Origin: Pyrinomonadaceae bacterium
GTDB taxonomy: Bacteria; Acidobacteriota; Blastocatellia; Pyrinomonadales; Pyrinomonadaceae
Assembly: GCA_028284415.1 (NCBI GenBank)
Contig: JANQRU010000007.1
Span: 806,001-870,000, forward strand
DNA: 64,000 nucleotides
Direction: 5' to 3'
Shown: positions 55,595-56,643 of the stretch, piece by piece
Position numbering within the stretch: the stretch's first letter is position 1
Layout: each line of letters opens with the position of its first letter
Made by a program: the position numbers and the translations under genes
The notes under the pieces: generated by a model
Told to the model about the DNA's origin: nothing
Seen by the model: the letters and a program-made list of their open reading frames with translations, nothing else
Database searches by the model: none

Positions 55595-55605
55595 GGAGGT
55601 TTAAA

Positions 55606-56121
55606 ATGCGTTTTATTTTATCTTTATTGATGATTTATGCTTTGGCAGCCTTTACCGCTTGCCAAGGTGCTTCTTCAACAACTGTAGAATCTGAAAAGAA
55701 GACTACAAATGAAAAGAAAGTAGAAGAATCTGTAGAAAAAATAGAAAAAAAAGAGGAAAAAGCTGAGAGCCAAGACAATCAGGAAAGTGATGATGAGGCT
55801 CCGCGAATTTCTTTAGAAGATGCCAAAAAGGCTTTTGATAAAGGTGAAGTTGTTTTTATAGATACACGCTCGGCTTTATCCTATCAAAACGAACATATTG
55901 AGGGAGCAGTCAATCTTCCGGCTGGTGATTTTGAAAAGGAATATAACAAGATTCCCAAAGGCAAGAAAATAATTGCCTATTGTTCCTGACCGGCTGAAAA
56001 TACAAGTGCCCGTGTGGTACAAATGCTGATGAAAAAAGGATATAAAAATGCTTATGCATTAGTCGGCGGAACAGCCGCTTGGAAAAACGCAGGTTATCCG
56101 ATGGAAAGTTCAAGTAAATAA
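55606..56121 (+). CDS. Rhodanese-like lipoprotein with in-frame UGA (putative selenocysteine)
   Basis: Read through one UGA, the frame encodes 171 residues. A lipoprotein leader has lipobox FTAC (Cys19). A Lys/Glu-rich linker runs from about 24 to 64, followed by a rhodanese domain (ISLEDAKKAFDKGEVVFID, then INPxGDF-like NLPAGDFEKEY). The active loop reads AYCS-U-PAENTSARV with UGA at codon 128. Relatives have the loop YCxCPxE, so UGA replaces the second Cys. Downstream of it the domain finishes normally (KKGYKNAYALVGGTAAW) and a terminator follows. I therefore annotate through the UGA. A nonsense mutation or base error is the alternative. Confidence 0.65.
55987..56020 (+). promoter_or_regulatory. 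UGA codon and candidate bacterial SECIS hairpin
   Basis: UGA is at 55987-55989. Bases 56006-56010 (GTGCC) and 56016-56020 (GGTAC) form a 5-bp stem with loop CGTGT, including one G-U pair. The loop starts 21 bases after UGA and has G as its second base, within the loose rules for bacterial SECIS elements. The stem is short, so support is moderate. SelA, SelB, selC and SelD are not in the window. Confidence 0.4.
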
Positions 56122-56130
56122 AATAAAAAC

Positions 56131-56167
56131 AGGCGAAGGTTACATTTAATCTTCGCCTCATTTTTTT
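56131..56167 (+). terminator. Rho-independent terminator of the rhodanese gene
   Basis: AGGCGAAG (56131-56138) and CTTCGCCT (56151-56158) form a perfect 8-bp stem with a 12-base loop, followed by CATTTTTTT. It sits 9 bases after the read-through stop at 56121, so the transcript is built to include the region beyond the UGA. Confidence 0.92.
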
Positions 56168-56175
56168 GAAAACTT

Positions 56176-56643
56176 ATGCTCAATGATGAGATAAAAAAGT
56201 ACATAGAAAAAAGCGTTTTGTGTTGGTTAGCAACATCCGATGCTGAGAATATCCCAAACGTATCTCCCAAAGAAATCTTCACACATTTAGGCGATGAGAT
56301 TCTTTTGATCGCCAACATCGCATCGCCTCAATCAGTCCGAAATATCAAACAAAATGAAAATGTTTGCGTAAGTTTTGTAGATGTATTCGTGCAGAAAGGT
56401 TTTCAACTTAAAGGAAAAGCGAAGATTATCGAAAAATCCGACAAAGATTTTGATGAGTTGGAAAAACCTCTACTCAAAATGACGGGTGGAAATTTTCCAA
56501 TCAGATCAATAATTAAAATTAAAATTGAAAAATCAAAACGCATTCTCGCACCGAGATATTTTTTGTATCCCGACACGACGGAAGAACAACAAATTGAAAG
56601 TGCTTTAGAAACTTATGGCGTGTGTTCAAAAGACTCTAACTAG
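56176..56643 (+). CDS. Pyridoxamine 5'-phosphate oxidase-like FMN-binding protein
   Basis: This 155-residue split-barrel protein of the PNPOx-like superfamily has a core CWLATSDAENIPNVSPKEIF and then LLIANIASPQSVRNIKQNENVCVSFVD. That is the FMN-binding beta barrel seen in small flavin reductases and F420/heme-binding relatives. LKGKAKIIEK and RILAPRYFLYPD complete the barrel. The substrate cannot be told. The end overlaps the convergent wecB gene by 8 bases. Confidence 0.82.
   Translation: MLNDEIKKYIEKSVLCWLATSDAENIPNVSPKEIFTHLGDEILLIANIASPQSVRNIKQNENVCVSFVDVFVQKGFQLKGKAKIIEKSDKDFDELEKPLLKMTGGNFPIRSIIKIKIEKSKRILAPRYFLYPDTTEEQQIESALETYGVCSKDSN

Follow-up and report, generated by a model that had tools for sequence, protein, structure and literature searches.

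The gene described here lies on the forward strand of a 64,000-nucleotide stretch of Pyrinomonadaceae DNA, the whole of which is referred to as the window, and runs from an ATG at 55606 to a TAA stop at 56119-56121 (Table 1). It contains a single in-frame TGA, with an open frame of 127 codons from the ATG to this TGA and another of 43 codons from there to the TAA. Translation of the TGA as a residue gave a protein of 171 amino acids in which it occupies codon 128, in the context IIAYCS-U-PAENTSAR. This confirmed the loop sequence YCS-U-PAENTSAR, and the open frame on both sides of one TGA, that an earlier note on this DNA had reported. From its N terminus, the protein has a signal peptide, which closes with AAFTAC (Cys19), followed by a charged linker and a single rhodanese domain. 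The PF00581 match bridges the UGA, spanning residues 70 to 162 (E value, 1.5e-18; 67.5 bits versus a cut-off of 22.2). Furthermore, the AlphaFold2 model had a pLDDT of >90 across most of residues 66 to 170, and the top PDB matches of the model in Foldseek were rhodaneses. The terminator noted earlier corresponds to a terminator-like 12-bp stem with a T run, 9 bases 3' of the read-through stop.

Table 1. Features of the putative selenoprotein gene and its flanks (window coordinates)
Feature	Position	Strand	Details and basis
Putative selenoprotein gene, lipoprotein-anchored rhodanese	55606..56121	+	171 aa, predicted Sec at codon 128; UGA in 29/30 loci
Ribosome-binding site GGAGG	55595..55599	+	Read from sequence
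Signal peptide and lipobox FTA-C, Cys19 the predicted lipidation site	55606..55662	+	Sequence; lipoboxes in relatives
Rhodanese domain, residues 70-162	55813..56091	+	PF00581; AlphaFold2; Foldseek rhodanese matches
Canonical rhodanese active-site Cys126	55981..55983	+	Invariant in alignments A2 and A3; YC of 3tp9 domain 2
UGA codon as predicted Sec, residue 128, +2 from Cys126	55987..55989	+	Translation and homologue reading
Putative bacterial SECIS hairpin GUGCC / CGUGU / GGUAC	56006..56020	+	Covariation, slid controls, Sec versus Cys contrast
Stem of 12 pairs and T run, resembling an intrinsic terminator	56131..56158	+	Sequence

An open frame past a TGA is weak evidence of recoding in this A+T-rich window, because 18 TGA sites there passed the same simple open-frame filter, 17 of them besides codon 128; the open frame alone was therefore dropped as proof. 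A read-through search of 60 relatives, in genomes that are mostly metagenome assemblies, recovered homologues in all 60, and the best match contained exactly one in-frame TGA in 41 of them. The aligned codon, read in 30 homologous loci, was UGA in 29 and TGC in one (L048), and the UGA loop variants included YCSUPAENTSAR, YCTUPSEHTSAG, and YCSURDEHTSAR. Within the window's genus, the UGA was carried by all seven genomes, and its presence in these independent assemblies makes a base-call error untenable. When GTDB genomes were scanned with a pattern in which the UGA was fixed, UGA forms were found on 91 stretches from several phyla, mostly Acidobacteriota (Pyrinomonadaceae, Thermoanaerobaculia, Vicinamibacteraceae, and Chloracidobacterium) and Anaerolineae; a small number came from Geobacter/Geotalea, Desulfobacterota, KSB1, and Synergistaceae. 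Cultured bacteria with a UGA form include Anaerolinea thermolimosa (L116) and Geotalea (L096/L119). The half of the protein downstream of the UGA, which was inspected for decay, is conserved in relatives, with Ser134 and Gly154 invariant and Ala135, Gly145, Gly155, and Trp159 nearly so. It is this comparative evidence, and not the open frame, that puts the predicted recoding beyond chance. Were the UGA instead a true stop, arising from a nonsense mutation, an assembly error, or a decaying gene, the product would be a truncated rhodanese without its C-terminal part. Of 24 long genes in the window whose stops were checked, one ends in UGA as a normal stop, and chance open frames follow TGAs elsewhere in the window; nevertheless, the recurrence of the codon in every congeneric genome (seven of seven) and at nearly every locus read (29 of 30), the conserved downstream half, and a covarying hairpin (see below) make a true stop very improbable.

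The earlier note had named the selenocysteine (Sec) machinery of the genome as a check, and all of the components sought were found: selA (E value, 1.5e-159), selB (3.2e-118), a tRNA-Sec with anticodon UCA, and selD (3.7e-107). The selD gene, located at L176:920-2020 on the minus strand (G000:C2 near 860584-861507), has an in-frame UGA of its own within CAGUVAK; as it is itself a selenoprotein gene, selenium incorporation relies on a Sec enzyme. Among the 60 relatives, 59 possessed selA above the cut-off, and the sole exception, G026, was also without a UGA rhodanese match.

The hairpin with a G in its loop that had been noted 21 bases beyond the UGA was confirmed. It reads GUGCC-CGUGU-GGUAC, its arms occupy 56006-56010 and 56016-56020, and its loop begins 21 nt past the UGA. 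The bacterial SECIS model of PMC13188914 has a loop of 3 to 9 nt, a stem of 4 to 16 bp, a spacing of 16 to 37 nt, and a G at loop position 1 or 2, usually with G or U next; the window hairpin, with its 5-nt loop, 5 bp, G at position 2 followed by U, and spacing of 21 nt, fits these rules. The model also sets the minimum free energy at -7.5 kcal/mol or below, in a passage that names no folding length for this value, and the 46 nt from the UGA folded at -7.2 kcal/mol, narrowly short of it. The energy of the 46-nt fold was no better than that of shuffled sequences (z, 0.00), and the isolated 22-nt hairpin reached a z of -1.88 against shuffles. An Rfam scan of the window gave no match, which is unsurprising because bacterial SECIS elements vary between families.

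Covariation was measured across 99 distinct UGA forms. In these, 89.7% of pairs were kept, changes on both sides occurred in five of the six pairs, and 35 double-change cells were observed versus 8.1 in shuffles; the signal was lost in all versions of a slid control in which the partner was moved by 1 to 3 columns. Compensatory changes in this 5-bp hairpin with loop NGUNN span Acidobacteriota, Anaerolineae, Geobacter, and others, as exemplified by GCGCC..GGCGC changing to GCGCU..AGCGC and by UCCGCC..GGCGGA in Geobacter. Of 110 distinct UGA forms, 104 carried NGU in the loop; some loops read GGUCU, which is the loop of the Escherichia coli fdhF SECIS. Compared with fdhF, the window loop appears to lie about one codon farther from its UGA. 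A fully paired stem (5/5) together with the GU loop was found in 94 of the 110 Sec forms versus 0 of 10 distinct Cys forms (Fisher P value, 5e-8, to be read as a guide only because related sequences are not independent), and the loop GU by itself was likewise kept in none of the 10. The loop sits on the codon of an Arg, Gly, or Ser residue, which is nearly always CGU, GGU, or AGU, a bias that is not a selection effect because the pattern scan left those bases free. Since the residue varies while the GU stays, the RNA constraint of the putative recoding hairpin appears to override a protein residue of the active loop. Placement of a SECIS element on active-loop codons would make the RNA and protein constraints separable.

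To follow the earlier suggestion that homologues be aligned for U/C alternation at codon 128, Cys forms were collected from L148, L165, L189, and L196-L204. The Cys set was small, comprising 10 distinct sequences; 8 of the 20 fetched non-Sec regions failed the motif filters and were excluded. In every non-Sec homologue read, the residue at +2 from the canonical Cys was Cys, a statement that holds for the copies read. The alternation is present, even inside a single genus of the same family (g9), in which L147, L150, L151, L152, and L156 carry UGA and the member represented by L148/L178 has TGT at the Sec codon and an altered loop. The claim that relatives have a Cys at this position thus stood in part: Cys forms exist, but they are a minority, and most close relatives also have UGA. 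In genus g9, L177 (UGA) and L178 (TGT) have common neighbors on both sides, a peroxiredoxin upstream and a UDP-sugar dehydrogenase-like gene downstream, and are therefore orthologues. The peroxiredoxin (AhpC/TSA family, PF00578) lies directly upstream of the Sec/Cys orthologues, at L177:3050-3511 and L178:4555-5016, and possibly forms one operon with the rhodanese. This syntenic Sec/Cys switch, with the hairpin loop lost in the Cys form, provides a clean natural experiment on the gain and loss of Sec.

The same contrast bears on the possibility that reassignment or readthrough of the UGA inserts an amino acid other than Sec, for example Trp. The open frame would suit such a reading, and nothing else does: the homologues read show only Cys or UGA at the codon, a complete Sec system is encoded in the genome, and the GU loop is missing from 10 of 10 Cys forms, as expected if SelB reads the loop. 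We regard insertion of another amino acid as hardly conceivable. Readings as a pseudogene, a sequencing error, or a reassigned code were all rejected on conservation, hairpin covariation, and the Sec system. The UGA at codon 128 is therefore almost certain, as judged from sequence comparison, to encode Sec, and the earlier interpretation of the rhodanese lipoprotein as a selenoprotein is supported. Standard annotation is liable to truncate such genes or to label them pseudogenes. A whole branch of rhodaneses anchored in the envelope, from Acidobacteriota and Anaerolineae that are mostly uncultured, is here predicted to require selenium.

The proposed membrane anchor was assessed from the N termini. 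The lipobox of the window protein, AAFTAC, has a less usual Phe at -3, and most close relatives also have a lipobox (LTAC, LTSC, VTGC, or LAAC), in agreement with the prediction that the protein is a lipoprotein. It is consequently predicted with high confidence to be located outside the cytoplasm. N-terminal membrane segments in the Anaerolineae forms indicate the same location, but some UGA copies in Geobacter relatives have no obvious signal or membrane segment, so that an extracytoplasmic location is not family-wide. At L039, L072, L095, L100, and L122, two UGA rhodaneses stand in tandem, separated by a few hundred bases; in the L039, L072, L095, and L122 tandems, a lipobox is present in one copy and none was detected in the other.

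The same genome encodes a DedA-family (VTT domain) protein with a C-terminal rhodanese at L175:1569-2504 (G000:C1:716568-717503). Its frame contains a UGA at L175:2373, where the loop reads YCTUPNEAKSAS, together with a hairpin of six perfect base pairs, AGUGCC-AGUGU-GGCACU. At related loci in Acidobacteriota, the loop is YCTUPNEATSAR or, in Cys forms, YCTCPSEETSAK. This DedA-rhodanese fusion is a second predicted Sec architecture in the genome. It may be undescribed; a literature search found nothing that combined rhodanese, DedA, and selenoprotein, which is weak evidence because the search covered open-access papers only.

Rhodaneses have long been reported among bacterial selenoprotein families, as the earlier note stated, and NF041203 (rhodanese_LYCAU, "rhodanese-related (seleno)protein") covers the CxU type. 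PMC13188914 lists the NF041203 type as rhodanese-like form 3, with a CxU motif, and the window protein has the same C-x-U loop position, in AYCSU. NF041203 was its best NCBIfam match (101.9 bits; E value, 1.9e-29) and was matched by all 25 aligned relatives scanned. The score lies below the cut-off of 115, making the window protein a close relative of NF041203 and not a formal member. Against the same cut-off, the DedA fusion scored 90.1 bits and several Anaerolineae, Geobacter, and acidobacterial forms scored 55 to 84 bits, whereas a Desulfobacterales member reached 150.2. A further difference from NF041203 is that the window's branch is lipoprotein anchored. By these comparisons the window protein is of the same kind as NF041203, in what appears to be a divergent branch that the present cut-off of the model would miss. 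Added here to an already catalogued selenoprotein family are a large, divergent, membrane-anchored branch, the DedA-rhodanese fusion with its predicted Sec, and the apparent precedence of a recoding hairpin over a residue of the active loop; the window protein itself is very probably a membrane-anchored Sec rhodanese. Other rhodanese selenoproteins listed in PMC13188914 are forms 1, 2, and 4, with UxxS/UxxG motifs, and TsoB (NF045694), a rhodanese/DsbD fusion with the motif UxxxxU; they share with the window protein a rhodanese domain with Sec, theirs presumably in the active loop, but, as far as these motifs tell, differ from it in that it keeps the canonical Cys and has Sec at +2. The window protein scored 37.7 against the TsoB model (cut-off, 805) and 38.5 against that of GlpE (cut-off, 102). 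The single-domain thiosulfate sulfurtransferases GlpE and PspE have the same fold and catalytic Cys position as the window protein but are without Sec, and they have a shorter loop and one Cys.

The Cys-x-Sec pair proposed earlier was borne out, with the refinement that Cys126 is the canonical Cys and Sec128 is the extra loop residue. Cys126 is invariant in the alignments and occupies the position of the canonical catalytic Cys, as in YCR--TGGRSA of 3tp9, and the active loop, inside which Sec128 falls, is two residues longer than the usual rhodanese loop. The only pairings seen in the active loop were Cys-x-Sec and Cys-x-Cys. The predicted recoding, the putative SECIS element, the conservation of the Cys-x-Sec pair, and the probable anchor are all shown by comparison. 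In the model that we favor, SelB and Sec-tRNA(Sec) would decode UGA 128 as Sec, guided by the SECIS within active-loop codons, and the single rhodanese domain of the mature lipoprotein would face outside the cytoplasm. Within the enlarged active loop, Cys126, the canonical nucleophile, and Sec128 would form the Cys-x-Sec pair. Cys126 would take up sulfane sulfur or become oxidized, Sec128 would then attack the persulfide or oxidized thiol to give a selenenyl-sulfide, and an envelope thiol reductant would regenerate the enzyme. The net activity would be persulfide or thiol-peroxide reduction and not plain thiosulfate:cyanide transfer. The Cys-x-Sec/Cys-x-Cys pair suggests such a thiol/selenol redox couple, and together with the peroxiredoxin upstream in genus g9 it leads us to favor a redox reading; this neighbor is known from that one genus, on which the neighborhood argument depends. 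We put the chance that a Cys126/Sec128 couple reduces persulfides or oxidized thiols/peroxides at about even.

The main rival to this redox mechanism is a Sec-dependent sulfurtransferase proper (a thiosulfate, polysulfide, or selenium carrier), in which Sec128 would carry or present the transferred sulfur or selenium and would not act as a resolving redox residue. Both the rhodanese fold with its canonical Cys and the fold neighbors, namely, EanB (6ktv, persulfided Cys412), persulfide dioxygenase-rhodanese fusions, YgaP, and CoA-persulfide reductases, are consistent with sulfur transfer. However, the exclusive Cys-x-Sec or Cys-x-Cys pairing favors a thiol/selenol couple, the usual loop has been replaced by the longer one, and a peroxiredoxin lies upstream in genus g9, so we treat plain sulfur transfer as a real possibility but not as the expected outcome. 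Oxyanion reduction occurs in the rhodanese superfamily, in certain enzymes of the Acr2/Cdc25 kind, and an arsenate- or selenite-reductase-like function would accord with a loop longer than in sulfurtransferases and with the rhodanese ExtH of selenite/tellurite reduction operons, which one family member matches weakly (E value, 4.8e-4). Yet no arsenic or selenite genes were recognized among the neighbors examined, and the loop differs from the CX5R loop of the Acr2/Cdc25 group; oxyanion reduction is thus quite unlikely.

More broadly, the branch could tentatively be viewed as a distinct envelope Cys-x-Sec rhodanese system of many Acidobacteriota and Anaerolineae that would handle extracytoplasmic sulfane sulfur or peroxides. 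Its architectures would comprise the lipoprotein, a single transmembrane anchor, tandem pairs, and the DedA fusion, and the SECIS would have forced the conserved active-loop Arg to Gly or Ser (codons CGU, GGU, and AGU).

In the window's genus and near relatives, the conserved upstream neighbor is an amidophosphoribosyltransferase-type gene, and UDP-GlcNAc 2-epimerase and UDP-sugar dehydrogenase genes lie downstream on the other strand. These conserved neighbors establish orthology, and none of the three gave a functional or redox hint. At 56176-56643 of the window, a pyridoxamine-5'-phosphate-oxidase-like gene (PF01243), not seen at that place in close relatives with listed neighborhoods, separates the selenoprotein gene from the UDP-GlcNAc 2-epimerase gene.
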